Below are positions 26,265 through 31,184 of a stretch of 36,207 nt of DNA, piece by piece (position 1 is the stretch's first letter; each line of letters starts with the position of its first letter). The position numbers and the translations under genes are program-made. The notes beneath the pieces are model-generated. The model was not told the origin of the DNA. It made no database searches and saw only the letters and a program-made list of their open reading frames with translations. This DNA comes from an uncultured Clostridia bacterium. GTDB taxonomy: Bacteria > Bacillota > Clostridia > Oscillospirales > Ruminococcaceae. The DNA lies in contig CANQNY010000010.1 in assembly GCA_947625335.1 (NCBI GenBank), positions 1-36,207 on the forward strand, in the 5' to 3' direction.

Positions 26265-26291
26265 ATCACCATATTTTCAATGAAACATATT

Positions 26292-26331
26292 ATATTATCG
26301 GAACAGTATGTCGTTCCGATAATATTTTTTT
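26292..26331 (+). terminator. Strong terminator hairpin abutting the feoA ribosome site
   Basis: ATATTATCGGAAC (26292-26304) pairs perfectly with GTTCCGATAATAT (26313-26325) around an 8-nt loop, then T residues to 26331. GGGGTGG, the feoA ribosome site, starts at the next base. It ends the GumN transcript, but it also lies in front of feoA. Confidence 0.88.
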
Positions 26332-26342
26332 GGGGTGGAATT

Positions 26343-26579
26343 ATGGACAAAATCGGTTCTTTATGCGATATAACAGTCGGAGAAAAAGCAATGGTAACGG
26401 GGCTTAATATCCACGGAGCAATGCGCCGCAGGCTGCTGGATATAGGGCTTTGCGACGGCACAGTCGTAGAGTGCGTCGGGCGCAGTCCCATGGGCGATCC
26501 CGCGGCGTTCCTTATTCGCGGAGCAATCGTCGCTATCCGCGACTGCGACAGCCGAGGCGTTAAAGTAAGGGGGATTTGA
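26343..26579 (+). CDS. feoA: Ferrous iron transport protein FeoA
   Basis: A 78-residue SH3-like protein with the FeoA pattern: VGEKAMVTGL, MRRRLLDIGLCDGTVVECV and AAFLIRGAIVAIRD. It probably acts with FeoB at the membrane in Fe(II) uptake. I start at 26343 behind GGGGTGG; a longer frame from 26280 would start inside the terminator. It stops directly before feoB. Confidence 0.93.
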   Translation: MDKIGSLCDITVGEKAMVTGLNIHGAMRRRLLDIGLCDGTVVECVGRSPMGDPAAFLIRGAIVAIRDCDSRGVKVRGI

Positions 26580-28715
26580 ATGGGACTTACCGCAAAATCT
26601 ACGGGGTTTTCGGCGGCAGGGGGCGATATTGCCGTTCGGAAAAATTCTCCCGACGACAAAATAATCGCTTTCGCGGGAAACCCGAACGTCGGAAAAAGCA
26701 CCGTTTTCAACGCGCTCACGGGACTTCATCAGCACACGGGAAACTGGTCGGGAAAAACCGTCGCGACAGCTCAGGGGCATTTCAAAACAAAGCGTTTTTC
26801 GTATATTCCCGTGGATATTCCGGGAACGTATTCCCTGCTGGCGCACTCCGCCGAGGAGGAAGTAGCGCGCGATTTTATCTGCTTTGGCGGCGCGGACGCG
26901 GCGGTTGTCGTATGCGACGCAACCTGTCCCGAACGCAGTCTGAACCTCGCGTTGCAGATAATGGAGGTCTGCCCGAAAACGCTGGTTTGTATGAACCTTA
27001 TGGACGAGGCAGAACGCCGCGGCATTAAGCCGAATATCGAACTTCTCGAAAAGGAACTCGGCGTGCCTGTGGTGGGAACTTCGGCGCACGACAAAAAGAC
27101 CCTTTCGGCTCTCACAGAGAAACTTGACAAGCTTTGTGCGGGAGAAATCGTCCCCGCGCCGCGACGTCTGCACTACATAAAGCCGATTGAGCAGGCTTTG
27201 GATATTTTAACGCCCGCGGTGGAGAAAATTACAAAAAACGCTCTGCCCCCGCGCTGGACAGCTTTAAGATTGCTTGACAACGATTCGTCGTTCACGGCGG
27301 GAATTGAGAATTTTCTGGGGGTAAAGCTGTCCGAAAACGAGGAAATTGCCGCTGCCCTCGAACACGCGCAAAATCTCCTCGCCGAAAACGACATCACCGC
27401 CGACCGCCTTAAGGACAGAATTGTGTCCTGCATTATGCTGAACGCCGAGGAGGCGTGCGGGGACGCGTTTTCCGCCGTTCCGAGGACGCTTTCGCGCGCG
27501 GATAAAATTCTCACAAGCCGCGTGTGGGGCTTTCCGATAATGTTTTTGCTGCTGATTTTAGTGTTTTGGATAACGATTATCGGCGCGAATTATCCGAGCG
27601 AATTGCTAAGTAAATTGCTGTTCGGGCTGGGGGATTGGCTGTCGGAATTGATGATAAAAACAAACGCCCCCGAATGGCTGCGCGGGATACTCATAGACGG
27701 CGCGTACCGCGTGCTTGCGTGGGTGGTGGCGGTAATGCTGCCGCCGATGGCGATTTTTTTCCCGCTGTTTTCGCTGCTGGAGGATCTGGGGTATCTGCCG
27801 CGGATTGCGTACAACCTTGACCGCCCGTTTTGCAAATGCAACGCCTGCGGAAAACAGGCTCTGACTATGTGCATGGGCTTTGGCTGCAACGCGGCGGGAA
27901 TTGTCGGCTGCCGAATAATCGACAGCCGCCGCGAGCGCCTTATCGCGATGCTTACAAACGTTTTCGCACCCTGCAACGGGCGTTTCCCGATGATACTGAC
28001 GATAATCTCGGTGTTTTTCGCGCGGAAAGCGTCGGGCGTGTGGGGAAGTCTTGTCAGCGCGGCATTGCTGGCGGTCGTGATCGTCGCGGGGATTTTGGCA
28101 ACCCTCGGCGTATCGAAAATTCTTTCTGCAACCATTCTCAAAGGCGAACCGTCCTCGTTTACGCTGGAACTGCCGCCCTATCGCCGCCCGCAAATAGGGA
28201 AGATACTGCTGCGGTCGCTGCTGGACAGGACGATTTTCGTACTCGGCAGAGCCGCCGCAGCCGCCGCGCCTGCGGGAGCGGTTATCTGGCTGCTTGCGAA
28301 CGTCAGGGCGGGCGGCGCGCCGATACTCTCGTATATAACCTCGGCGCTTGACCCGTTCGGACGGTTTATCGGCATGGACGGCGTGATGATAACGTCGTTT
28401 TTGCTGGGACTTCCCGCAAACGAGATAGTAATCCCGCTTGCCGCGATGACCTATATGCAGCAGGGAGCATTGTCCGAGATAGCTCCCGCGCAGATGTACG
28501 AGTTGTTTACGCAAAACGGCTGGACGTGGGTGACGGCGCTGTGCGTAATCGCGTTTTCGCTTATGCATTTTCCGTGCGCCACGTCGCTCCTCACCGTGAA
28601 AAAGGAGGCAGGCGGGTGGCGCTGGGCGGCTCTGGCGTTTGCGATACCGACGGTGTGCGGGGTGGTCTGCTGCGCCGTTATCGCCGCTGTCGGGAGAATT
28701 TTCACGGGTGTGTAG
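26580..28715 (+). CDS. feoB: Ferrous iron transporter FeoB
   Basis: The 711-residue protein has a cytoplasmic G domain (G1 GNPNVGKST at 33-41, G3 DIPGTYSL, G4 NLMD, G5-like SAHDKK) and a helical GDI-like region. A membrane part follows with the Gate motifs GFGCNAAGIVGCRIID and PCNGRFPMI, and a second Gate region near PANEIVIPLAAMTYMQ. It imports Fe(II). The CNGRFP form is the version I associate with Clostridia. The ATG directly follows the feoA stop, with GGGGG nine bases before. A C-terminal FeoC is not seen. Confidence 0.96.
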   Translation: MGLTAKSTGFSAAGGDIAVRKNSPDDKIIAFAGNPNVGKSTVFNALTGLHQHTGNWSGKTVATAQGHFKTKRFSYIPVDIPGTYSLLAHSAEEEVARDFICFGGADAAVVVCDATCPERSLNLALQIMEVCPKTLVCMNLMDEAERRGIKPNIELLEKELGVPVVGTSAHDKKTLSALTEKLDKLCAGEIVPAPRRLHYIKPIEQALDILTPAVEKITKNALPPRWTALRLLDNDSSFTAGIENFLGVKLSENEEIAAALEHAQNLLAENDITADRLKDRIVSCIMLNAEEACGDAFSAVPRTLSRADKILTSRVWGFPIMFLLLILVFWITIIGANYPSELLSKLLFGLGDWLSELMIKTNAPEWLRGILIDGAYRVLAWVVAVMLPPMAIFFPLFSLLEDLGYLPRIAYNLDRPFCKCNACGKQALTMCMGFGCNAAGIVGCRIIDSRRERLIAMLTNVFAPCNGRFPMILTIISVFFARKASGVWGSLVSAALLAVVIVAGILATLGVSKILSATILKGEPSSFTLELPPYRRPQIGKILLRSLLDRTIFVLGRAAAAAAPAGAVIWLLANVRAGGAPILSYITSALDPFGRFIGMDGVMITSFLLGLPANEIVIPLAAMTYMQQGALSEIAPAQMYELFTQNGWTWVTALCVIAFSLMHFPCATSLLTVKKEAGGWRWAALAFAIPTVCGVVCCAVIAAVGRIFTGV

Positions 28716-28870: not shown

Positions 28871-29038
28871 TTAATACAGCGAATCCATAAACGTGCCGAT
28901 AAGCTTTGCGGCTTTGGCGGCGGTTTTGCGGCGAAGACGGCGGCTGCTTGTAAGCCGTTTTACCGCCAGAAACGCCAGCCCGCCCGTCACCGCGCCCGCA
29001 GCCGCGCTTTTGACGTAGCATTTCGCCTCGTGCGTCAT
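28871..29038 (-). CDS. Small protein with one hydrophobic segment (55 aa)
   Basis: AAGGAG stands well placed before the ATG at 29038. The product starts MTHEAKCYVKSAAAGAVTGG, has one glycine/alanine-rich hydrophobic stretch (about residues 10-26) that may be a membrane helix, and then a strongly basic tail (RLTSSRRLRRKTAAKAAK). I do not recognise the family. A small membrane-bound protein with a cytoplasmic basic tail fits. It sits alone between feoB and amt. An upstream reading to 29107 has no ribosome site. Confidence 0.65.
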   Translation of the reverse strand: MTHEAKCYVKSAAAGAVTGGLAFLAVKRLTSSRRLRRKTAAKAAKLIGTFMDSLY

Positions 29039-29178: not shown

Positions 29179-29225
29179 ATTTTGTGAATTTCTACAAAAT
29201 GCAAGTTTTATTTTAAAAACTTGCA
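29179..29225. repeat. Two adjacent inverted repeats upstream of the amt promoter
   Basis: ATTTTGT (29179-29185) pairs with ACAAAAT (29194-29200). Sharing its last base, TGCAAGTTTT (29200-29209) pairs with AAAACTTGCA (29216-29225). Both lie within 55 bases upstream of the -35 and could be protein sites. The rest of the 29039-29233 gap shows nothing clear. Confidence 0.6.
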
Positions 29226-29233
29226 AAAAACCC

Positions 29234-29262
29234 TTGACAAATTATTTTGAACGTAGTATAAT
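29234..29262 (+). promoter_or_regulatory. amt promoter
   Basis: Perfect TTGACA (29234-29239) and TATAAT (29257-29262) with a 17-bp spacer. The expected start near 29268 coincides with the first base of the leader hairpin P1. Confidence 0.9.
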
Positions 29263-29267
29263 AAAAC

Positions 29268-29326
29268 CATAGCAGAGAGGCTATGAAGTGCGGATTTATC
29301 GGGAGTTCGCACGTCATAGCCTTTTT
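29268..29326 (+). promoter_or_regulatory. ANTAR-type antiterminator and attenuator in the amt leader
   Basis: Hairpin P1 is CATAGC-AGAGAG-GCTATG (29268-29285), a perfect 6-bp stem with a hexaloop that has A at position 1 and G at position 4. A second hairpin (29288-29312) can present hexaloop ATCGGG, again A1 and G4, on an imperfect stem with one bulge and one mismatch. A competing terminator forms when GGCTATGA (29279-29286) and GTGCG (29288-29292) pair with CGCAC (29308-29312) and TCATAGCC (29314-29321), then TTTTT (29322-29326). P1 and the terminator share GCTATG and exclude each other. Two A1/G4 hexaloops before a terminator are the known signature of targets of ANTAR proteins, several of which control nitrogen genes. 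The ANTAR protein itself is not in the window. Confidence 0.72.
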
Positions 29327-29384
29327 GTTTTATATAACCTTTGGAAAAGCGAACAAAGGGACAAAATGAAAGGAGCGGTCTTAA

Positions 29385-31184
29385 ATGAACGCAATTTTAA
29401 CGACGCTTTCACAGGCGACAGCGGGCGTTGACGAAGTCGTCAACAGCACGATGTTCAATGTGGGCGACGGAAACGGCATATGGTACCTTATCGGTGCCGC
29501 GTTGGTATTCTTTATGCAGGCGGGTTTCGCGATGGTGGAAACGGGTATGACCCGCGCGAAGAACGCCGGCAACATCATTATGAAGAACCTTATGGACTTC
29601 TGTATCGGTACGGTGGTATTTATCTTCCTCGGTTTCGGGCTGCTGCTCGGCGAGGACGCGCTGTTCGGACTGGTGGGTATCCCGACGCTTGACGTACTCG
29701 GCAGTTTCACCTCGTTTGACAGATGCGCGGAGTTCGTGTTCAACCTTGTTTTCTGCGCGACAGCGGCGACTATCGTGTCGGGCGCAATGGCGGAGCGCAC
29801 AAAGTTCATAAGCTACTGCATTTATTCGGCGGTTATAAGCGCTGTAATCTACCCCATCGAGGCTCACTGGGTATGGGGCGGCGGCTGGCTGGTACAAATG
29901 GGATTTGTTGACTTCGCGGGCTCGGCGGCAATTCACACCGCGGGCGGCGTATGCGCGCTTATCGGCGCGGCAATGGTAGGTCCTCGTATCGGCAAATTCG
30001 GCAAGGACGGCAAACCCCGCGCTATTCTCGGTCACTCTATGACGCTCGGCGCGCTGGGCGTGTTCATTCTGTGGTTCGGCTGGTACGGATTTAACGGCGC
30101 GGCGGCGTCCAATGTCGAGTATCTCGCGAACATCTTCCTCACCACGACGGTTGCTCCTGCGGTTGCAACCTGCACGACTATGATATTCACCTGGCTTAAA
30201 AACGGCAAACCCGATGTTTCGATGTGCTTGAACGCGTCTTTGGCGGGACTTGTCGCGATAACAGCTCCCTGCGCGGACGTTGACTGCCTGTCGGCGGCGA
30301 TAATCGGTCTGGTTTCGGGATTTATCGTAGTATTCGGCGTTTGGCTGCTGGACTATGTCCTCAAAGTCGACGACCCTGTCGGCGCGGTTGCGGTTCACTT
30401 CTGCAACGGCGTCTGGGGAACGTTGGCGGTAGGCTTGTTCGCTAACGGTCACGGTCAGAACGTCGGCGTTGGCGGCGAACCCGTAAAGGGTCTGTTCTAC
30501 GGCGGCGGATTTAAGCAGCTTGGGGTTCAGGCTCTCGGCGAGCTTTGCATTATCGCGTGGACGGCGGTTACCATTTCGCTTACGTTCCTGTTCCTCAAAA
30601 AGACTATCGGACTGCGTGTTTCCCGTCACGAGGAAATTGTCGGTCTGGACGCTACGGAACACGGACTTCCGAGCTCTTACGCGGACTTTATCCCGACAAT
30701 GCAGGTGGAAACCACCTCTTCGGGTCGTGAAAAGGAAGTCGATACTCTGGCGAAAGTCGAGGCTGCGGCAGGCTCTTCCGAAAAGGACGTTCCTGTTGTA
30801 CATAAGAAATACACTCCCTCGGACGGCGCTCATATGTCTAAGGTGGTTATTATCACCAAACCGGAGCATATCGAGGCTCTCAAAAACGCAATGTCCGGCA
30901 TAGGAATAACCGGTATGACGGTGACGAACGTCCTCGGCTGCGGAATGCAGAAGGGCTCTACGGAATACTACCGCGGCGTTCCTATCGAAACTCACCTGCT
31001 GCCGAAGATAAAGATGGAAATCGTCGTTTGCAAAGTGCCTGTTGAAACGGTCGTTGAGACCGCCAAGAGCGTGCTTTACACGGGCAAAATCGGCGACGGC
31101 AAGATTTTCGTATACGACGTTGTCGACGTTGTAAAAGTAAGAACGGGCGAGAGCGGCTACGACGCTCTTCAGGACGTAGAATAA
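29385..31184 (+). CDS. amt: Ammonium transporter fused to a PII signal domain
   Basis: Residues 1 to about 420 are an Amt/MEP channel with the pore histidines His184 (SAAIHTAGG) and His338 (VAVHFCNGVWG). A polar linker follows. Residues 484-599 are a GlnB/GlnK-like PII domain: MTVTNVLGCGMQKGS, then the T-loop with Tyr529 in TEYYRG at the position modified in proteobacterial PII, then LPKIKMEIVV and TGKIGDGKIFV. PII normally plugs Amt as a separate trimer when nitrogen is plentiful; here regulator and channel are one chain, so stoichiometry is fixed. AGGAG at 29371-29375 supports the start. A promoter, the attenuator leader and a terminator make it a single-gene unit. Confidence 0.95.
   Translation: MNAILTTLSQATAGVDEVVNSTMFNVGDGNGIWYLIGAALVFFMQAGFAMVETGMTRAKNAGNIIMKNLMDFCIGTVVFIFLGFGLLLGEDALFGLVGIPTLDVLGSFTSFDRCAEFVFNLVFCATAATIVSGAMAERTKFISYCIYSAVISAVIYPIEAHWVWGGGWLVQMGFVDFAGSAAIHTAGGVCALIGAAMVGPRIGKFGKDGKPRAILGHSMTLGALGVFILWFGWYGFNGAAASNVEYLANIFLTTTVAPAVATCTTMIFTWLKNGKPDVSMCLNASLAGLVAITAPCADVDCLSAAIIGLVSGFIVVFGVWLLDYVLKVDDPVGAVAVHFCNGVWGTLAVGLFANGHGQNVGVGGEPVKGLFYGGGFKQLGVQALGELCIIAWTAVTISLTFLFLKKTIGLRVSRHEEIVGLDATEHGLPSSYADFIPTMQVETTSSGREKEVDTLAKVEAAAGSSEKDVPVVHKKYTPSDGAHMSKVVIITKPEHIEALKNAMSGIGITGMTVTNVLGCGMQKGSTEYYRGVPIETHLLPKIKMEIVVCKVPVETVVETAKSVLYTGKIGDGKIFVYDVVDVVKVRTGESGYDALQDVE

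Follow-up and report, generated by a model that had tools for sequence, protein, structure and literature searches.

In the eut system of Enterococcus faecalis, short hairpins whose hexaloop carries A at position 1 and G at position 4 (A1/G4) are the targets of the ANTAR protein EutV. The published order is that of a free upstream hairpin, P1, followed by a second one, P2, which overlaps the terminator (PMC3369931, PMC8934654), and EutV needs both hairpins in vivo (PMC3369931). According to the paper on the 2022 EutV structure, one hexaloop represents the minimal ANTAR binding unit and Met172 of EutV is essential for RNA binding; the same paper raises the question of the in vivo need for two hairpins and answers it with a model in which P1 serves for recruitment (PMC8934654). 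ANTAR elements have also been computed before nitrogen genes, including those for ammonium transporters and P-II, by a search model that needed two hairpins and a subsequent screen of the hits for a terminator overlapping P2 (PMC3369931), and the presence of such elements before ammonium transporters is thus already in print. The predicted actinobacterial targets are dual stem-loops as well (PMC8164766). Since two hairpins are required in the searches described in these two sources (PMC3369931, PMC8164766), a class of targets with a single hexaloop would be missed by them.

The leader considered here lies in a window of 36,207 nt, i.e., the whole stretch of DNA that was analysed (contig CANQNY010000010.1 of assembly GCA_947625335.1, from an uncultured Clostridia bacterium of the Ruminococcaceae), where it precedes a gene fusing an ammonium transporter to a P-II domain (amt-PII). 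It resembles the computed nitrogen-gene targets of PMC3369931 in gene context and loop signature, and eut in having a short A1/G4 hexaloop hairpin that excludes an intrinsic terminator, with an ANTAR protein as the effector proposed here. Unlike eut, which has a free upstream P1 and a P2 at the terminator base, both needed in vivo, the 5'-terminal hairpin of this leader itself overlaps the terminator, and in relatives the second A1/G4 loop, if any, sits in the terminator apex. It is likely that the amt-PII leader works as a transcription attenuator with a single hexaloop, operated by an ANTAR protein. Its features are the following (coordinates in the window):

29200-29225, no strand assigned: inverted repeat TGCAAGTTTT / AAAAACTTGCA, just 5' of the -35 hexamer; candidate site for a DNA-binding regulator
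29234-29239, plus strand: -35 hexamer TTGACA, from the sequence and aligned in orthologues
29257-29262, plus strand: -10 hexamer TATAAT, from the sequence; 17-nt spacer, predicted +1 at about 29269
29268-29285, plus strand: P1, antiterminator hairpin CATAGC-[AGAGAG]-GCTATG with A1/G4 hexaloop, from sequence, folding and orthologous leaders
29274-29279, plus strand: hexaloop AGAGAG (A1, G4), presumed ANTAR contact
29279-29321, plus strand: terminator hairpin, from folding; the 3' arm of P1 forms its 5' base, and its apical pentaloop is AUCGG (29298-29302)
29298-29303, plus strand: ATCGGG, proposed earlier as the P2 loop; no stable hexaloop here by folding
29322-29335, plus strand: U-rich tract of the terminator, from the sequence
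29385-31184, plus strand: amt-PII fusion gene, 599 aa, ammonium transporter with a C-terminal P-II domain (PF00909 1.3e-118, PF00543 3.7e-24)

The stem of P1 is perfect over 6 bp and starts 5 nt after the -10 hexamer, which places it at about +1 by prediction. The terminator arms, GCTATGA...TCATAGC, are followed by TTTTT, and GCTATG doubles as the 3' arm of P1. P1 and the terminator are therefore mutually exclusive, as they share this arm and as the computed energy of an 80-nt segment is -36.7 kcal/mol at the unconstrained minimum versus -20.8 kcal/mol with P1 enforced; such exclusivity of antiterminator and terminator is expected of ANTAR-type antitermination by a single hexaloop. In line with the original prediction, P1 thus proves to be a perfect stem with loop AGAGAG, located at about the predicted first base of the transcript, and the terminator sharing its 3' arm forms the excluding state. 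None of 200 shuffles folds as well as the 125-nt leader (z -6.26), and computed folding of the growing chain gives, in order, P1, P1 together with the upper terminator, and the full terminator at about 56 nt. Rfam yields no match at gathering score within the whole window, and 11 sub-threshold matches in 29180-29400.

The original prediction went further and read the leader as a two-hairpin ANTAR antiterminator, in which a second stem presents ATCGGG. That stem has U-A and U.G as its only closing pairs, with a U.U mismatch next to them. Folding puts a pentaloop at the apex, and behind P1 the own amt leader offers no A1/G4 hexaloop on a stem of 3 bp or more. When compared with the dual-hairpin targets, the leader thus has the first A1/G4 hexaloop hairpin and lacks a second one of at least 3 bp, and its terminator is built on the 3' arm of that first hairpin instead of overlapping P2 and leaving P1 free. 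In this species the leader has a single good hairpin, the first, and this is the one that excludes the terminator. What can be retained is ANTAR-type antitermination, which represents the best reading given the A1/G4 loop kept in orthologues, the exclusivity of the two states, the ANTAR gene found in 38 of the 43 genomes of the genus, and the published nitrogen-gene elements (PMC3369931); the two-hairpin element is not supported for this species.

Orthologous leaders allow P1 to be followed across the genus, where Amt is present in 41 of 43 genomes, the own one included. The 39 leaders examined, again including the own, are L021-L050 minus L046, whose upstream region is a run of N, plus L201-L208, L210 and L211; L209, L212 and L213 were left out because the stretch stops at a contig end. 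P1, picked by the longest stem regardless of the loop (in L024 the loop served as the criterion instead), carries A1/G4 in 35 of them, with stems of 5-10 bp (3 bp in L024). In a stricter scan, which looks for the unit of a hairpin plus a perfect 8-bp terminator helix, A1/G4 is found in 24/39 leaders and any other loop class in at most 5, and the 15/39 leaders that fail have interrupted terminator helices or a long insert. The insert, present in L040, L042 and L205, places extra stem-loops after P1 and ahead of the terminator's 3' arm. Four of the 39 leaders have neither P1 nor an A1/G4 unit, and their genomes have ANTAR. They are L206-L208, where amt apparently lies directly after purF, without attenuator, and L210, which is apparently downstream of a glutamine synthetase gene (neighbours named by eye).

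The orthologues also bear on a canonical dual-hairpin ANTAR element made of P1 and an imperfect P2 (ATCGGG), both needed, which appears unlikely. The A and the G of ATCGGG are correctly placed, its short stem starts 9 nt after P1 with eut linkers being of 5-12 nt (PMC3369931), and in 14 same-genus leaders the predicted apex of the terminator is an A1/G4 hexaloop. Against this reading, the own ATCGGG has the weak closing pairs and the pentaloop described above, the published motif has the terminator overlapping P2 and not P1, and L022, the relative with the most similar Amt, has an apical tetraloop. Apical loops of exactly 6 nt are predicted in 16 of the 35 leaders, 14 being A1/G4 and 2 A1/A4. 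If any inner hexaloop on a stem of at least 3 bp is counted, A1/G4 occurs in 17/35 leaders and the next class, C1/A4, in 10/35, so that the apical count (14/16) is the cleaner figure. The apical A1/G4 hexaloops sit inside the terminator and would therefore exist in both states. Where relatives have a second A1/G4 hexaloop, folding thus predicts it within the apex of the terminator, so that the order is reversed with respect to the published motif. The expectation that orthologous leaders would keep two A1/G4 loops is thus borne out in part, as many keep the terminator and one loop, not two.

The same type of leader is also found elsewhere in the own genome (G000). A pattern search for promoter plus loop, used in place of a covariance model, matches 15 places; it can miss members, since it accepts TATAAT without any mismatch and C-G alone as the closing pair. 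MAFFT split the stems in the promoter-plus-hairpin alignment (25 of 48 sequences). Three of the 15 places have a hairpin of at least 3 bp and a terminator, namely the leaders of amt-PII, glutamine synthetase III (GSIII) and an ATP-grasp gene, and a fourth, L254, has a 3-bp stem without terminator. The two further leaders are:

L243 position 855, contig C17 of G000: GSIII leader hairpin GAAAC-AACGGC-GTTTC (Pfam GSIII_N 3e-82)
L251, contig C17 of G000: leader of a circularly permuted ATP-grasp gene, 3-bp stem (PF14403 4.9e-136)

An A1/G4 loop is thus common to unlinked leaders with different stems, that of amt-PII on contig C10 and those of GSIII and ATP-grasp on C17. By eye, no second A1/G4 hexaloop is seen in the own GSIII and ATP-grasp leaders, a further point against the dual element.

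Both genes were followed through the genus. A type I glnA query matched 5/43 genomes, and PF00120 then found the longer type; no unit is present in the five type I glutamine synthetase loci (L214-L218). The glutamine synthetase set comprises 25 fetched loci (L219-L243), the own one alone being Pfam-tested. An A1/G4 hairpin is present in 16/25 GSIII leaders of the genus, 14 of these 16 with a terminator by strict scan, and the other 9/25 have G at loop position 1 with G4 kept, 1/9 passing the strict hairpin-plus-terminator scan. In L220-L227 and L240 the glutamine synthetase leader loop reads GACGGC or GACGGT (G1, G4 kept). For ATP-grasp, 18 rows gave 15 assessable leaders, L270 being too short and L271 and L272 partial genes. 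The A1/G4 hairpin is found in 14/15 by pattern and hairpin plus terminator in 13/15 by a relaxed scan, and the fifteenth leader, L274, has the loop on a 2-bp stem. Loop conservation is here partly by construction, since the ATP-grasp hairpins and the 16 GSIII hairpins were chosen with the loop in the criterion.

Stem covariation was evaluated on 28 distinct hairpins, with a result that is favoured by selection on pairing: 31 cells are double-changed versus 11.2 in shuffles, the score is 0.538 versus 0.204, and slid controls give at most 3 cells. Two of the five covariation measures are not above shuffles (double-change pairs 3 vs 2.8; further pair types 8 vs 7.3). These data are relevant to the possibility that the attenuator is free of any protein, P1 merely delaying termination or shielding the 5' end. 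Two points speak for it: hairpins at +1 can protect mRNA, and the terminator is far more stable than P1. This explanation is nonetheless highly improbable, as the loop positions are kept while the stems covary and differ between genes, which would be needless for a hairpin that no protein reads.

Beyond the genus, the analysis was extended to the best 80 of at least 589 amt loci, scanned for a hexaloop hairpin of at least 4 bp whose 3' arm is common to a terminator helix of at least 8 bp with a U-rich tail. An A1/G4 hairpin sharing its 3' arm with the terminator is found in 41/80 of these leaders, whereas ten rounds of dinucleotide shuffling give 0.8 on average, and none of the 15 other loop classes exceeds 5; the remaining 39/80 have no A1/G4 unit by this strict scan. 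The leaders L121-L123, which belong to the 41, are identical to leaders from the genus, and without these three the count is 38/77. A second A1/G4 hairpin lies upstream in 2/41 (other classes up to 6) and downstream in 6/41 (other classes up to 5), the six including L121, L122 and L184. In 20/41 the distance from the end of a promoter (at most 2 mismatches) to the 5'-most hairpin is 5-11 nt, and when the cut-off is relaxed to 3 mismatches the figure is 21/41 versus a shuffle expectation of 2.1. Because the promoter ends so close, the hairpin in those 20/41 is the first structure of the transcript and an upstream hairpin has no room. By virtue of the second-hairpin counts and the promoter distance, the canonical dual element was rejected for most leaders of the wider set, with the 21/41 leaders that have no recognised promoter at 2 mismatches being those that could have an upstream hairpin with a shorter stem or a longer linker. 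Seven leaders of the wider set (L139, L155, L159, L160, L168, L172 and L174) carry two or three A1/G4 attenuator units in tandem before amt.

The identity of the protein acting on these leaders was approached through the distribution of ANTAR genes. The ANTAR search had no match in 14 control genomes and did match relatives. Among the genomes of the genus with at least 90% completeness and low contamination, 26 of 27 have ANTAR, the own one being the exception. The original prediction called for an unlinked ANTAR gene in this genome, and ANTAR searches found none in the own assembly; a contig does end, however, inside the operon that carries ANTAR in relatives. In the relatives read, the ANTAR gene comes after a glutamate-synthase-like GXGXG gene, and in L083 it is the last of the operon. 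The own contig C103 breaks off within the first gene of that operon, its last base corresponding to position 10403 of L083 (82% over 3.8 kb), and for the remainder of the operon the own assembly gives no match. The start of contig C91 has a short match, weaker at 74% over 91 bases, to the gene that flanks the operon on the other side. When the ANTAR-locus DNA of the relative G058 was compared with the own genome, no coding part of the operon end was found. Since C103 ends inside the operon and the remainder is unmatched, the own ANTAR locus was most likely lost in an assembly gap, as judged from the contig end. A 270-nt stretch of the own genome (L081, G000:C7:22643-22912) resembles, at 68%, DNA that adjoins the G058 ANTAR operon.

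The ANTAR proteins of the genus have been seen through 29 sequences, extracted by the ANTAR-domain motif from 30 loci, all of relatives and with the gene of the own species not among them. In 29/29 the phospho-acceptor position is occupied by Ser and not by Asp. The suggestion that the ANTAR protein may be a response regulator is thus supported as far as the fold is concerned and contradicted at the phospho-acceptor. Met172 of EutV is kept, and at the position of EutV Tyr164 the proteins have His (by eye, from the alignment). Among solved sequences, the closest to the ANTAR query is Rv1626 (1s8n; E 1e-14, query residues 44-182 aligned), with AmiR and EutV also matching. Rv1626 has Asp where the proteins of this genus have Ser, and EutV is phosphorylated, unlike these proteins without the Asp. 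AmiR of Pseudomonas aeruginosa (1qo0) is similar in having a receiver-like domain without phosphorylation residues (PMC8934654) and, by eye in the alignment, a His at the EutV Tyr164 position; it differs in having an amide operon, an AmiC partner and a dual hairpin (PMC3369931).

In the wider set, 79 genomes behind the 80 leaders were searched, 70 of which have ANTAR. The A1/G4 unit is present in 38/70 genomes with ANTAR versus 2/9 without (one-sided p 0.07), a co-occurrence that weakly supports the link between the two. The two leaders with the unit and no ANTAR match in their genome, L122 and L177, together with the absence of ANTAR from the own assembly, would fit an antiterminator other than ANTAR that binds the hexaloop and works these attenuators. 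We judge this quite unlikely. The A1/G4 hexaloop overlapping a terminator is the published ANTAR signature, and ANTAR is widespread in the genus, where the relatives read carry it in a glutamate-synthase-like operon. Moreover, the L122 leader is the same as that of L050, whose genome (G051) is 77% complete. A candidate that was dropped is the presence of the same attenuator before the glutamate-synthase/ANTAR operon itself, for which two leaders were read by eye and no A1/G4 enrichment was found in these loci (13/166 units over 16 classes, stricter scan); a first scan of 14 ANTAR loci gave scattered matches only.

An attenuator worked by an ANTAR protein would operate as follows. Because transcription is predicted to start at the base of P1, this hairpin would fold first, and the upper half of the terminator would fold next, alongside it. 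The last 3' arm to emerge would then displace the 5' arm of P1, presumably by branch migration, and complete the terminator, so that the default state would be OFF. An active ANTAR protein may grip the A1/G4 hexaloop and clamp P1, thus keeping the base of the terminator open and allowing amt-PII to be read, and in this species a second hairpin would be unneeded. Since the device also precedes GSIII and ATP-grasp in the own genome, a small ammonium-assimilation regulon may be under the control of the ANTAR protein, presumably ON when nitrogen is scarce, as the genes suggest. Because the receiver-like domain has no phospho-acceptor Asp, this pseudo-receiver protein would probably sense through a ligand or a partner.

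One A1/G4 hexaloop at +1, itself excluding the terminator, appears from these sequences to be a new architecture. No report of natural single-hexaloop ANTAR targets was found in the literature searched, the scope of which left aside most subscription papers and all bioRxiv preprints. We lean slightly towards the broader view that many Clostridia may control ammonium assimilation (amt-PII and, in this genus, also GSIII and ATP-grasp) through single-hexaloop attenuators at +1 and an unphosphorylated ANTAR protein, the recruitment hairpin being dispensable and one genus having a second hexaloop inside the terminator, with the order reversed. If right, this would name a nitrogen regulon of uncultured Clostridia, and the leaders that seemingly have one hexaloop at the first transcribed bases would provide a natural test of the EutV recruitment model.

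The surroundings of the amt promoter show further features. Halves similar to those of the inverted repeat TGCAAGTTTT/AAAAACTTGCA recur by eye at the corresponding position of 28 amt upstream regions from the genus, some with changed letters, and the repeat may perhaps serve a second regulator acting at the DNA level. The half CTTGCAAAA is also found 5' of the -35 of the glutamate-synthase/ANTAR operon, both in L083 and in the own contig C103. Beside amt, on the minus strand (window 28871-29038), there is a small divergent ORF of about 55 codons, and by eye L201, L205 and L211 seem to have comparable frames upstream of their amt genes. Upstream of amt there are also feoA-like and feoB-like genes for ferrous iron transport (26280-28715), named from their translations.
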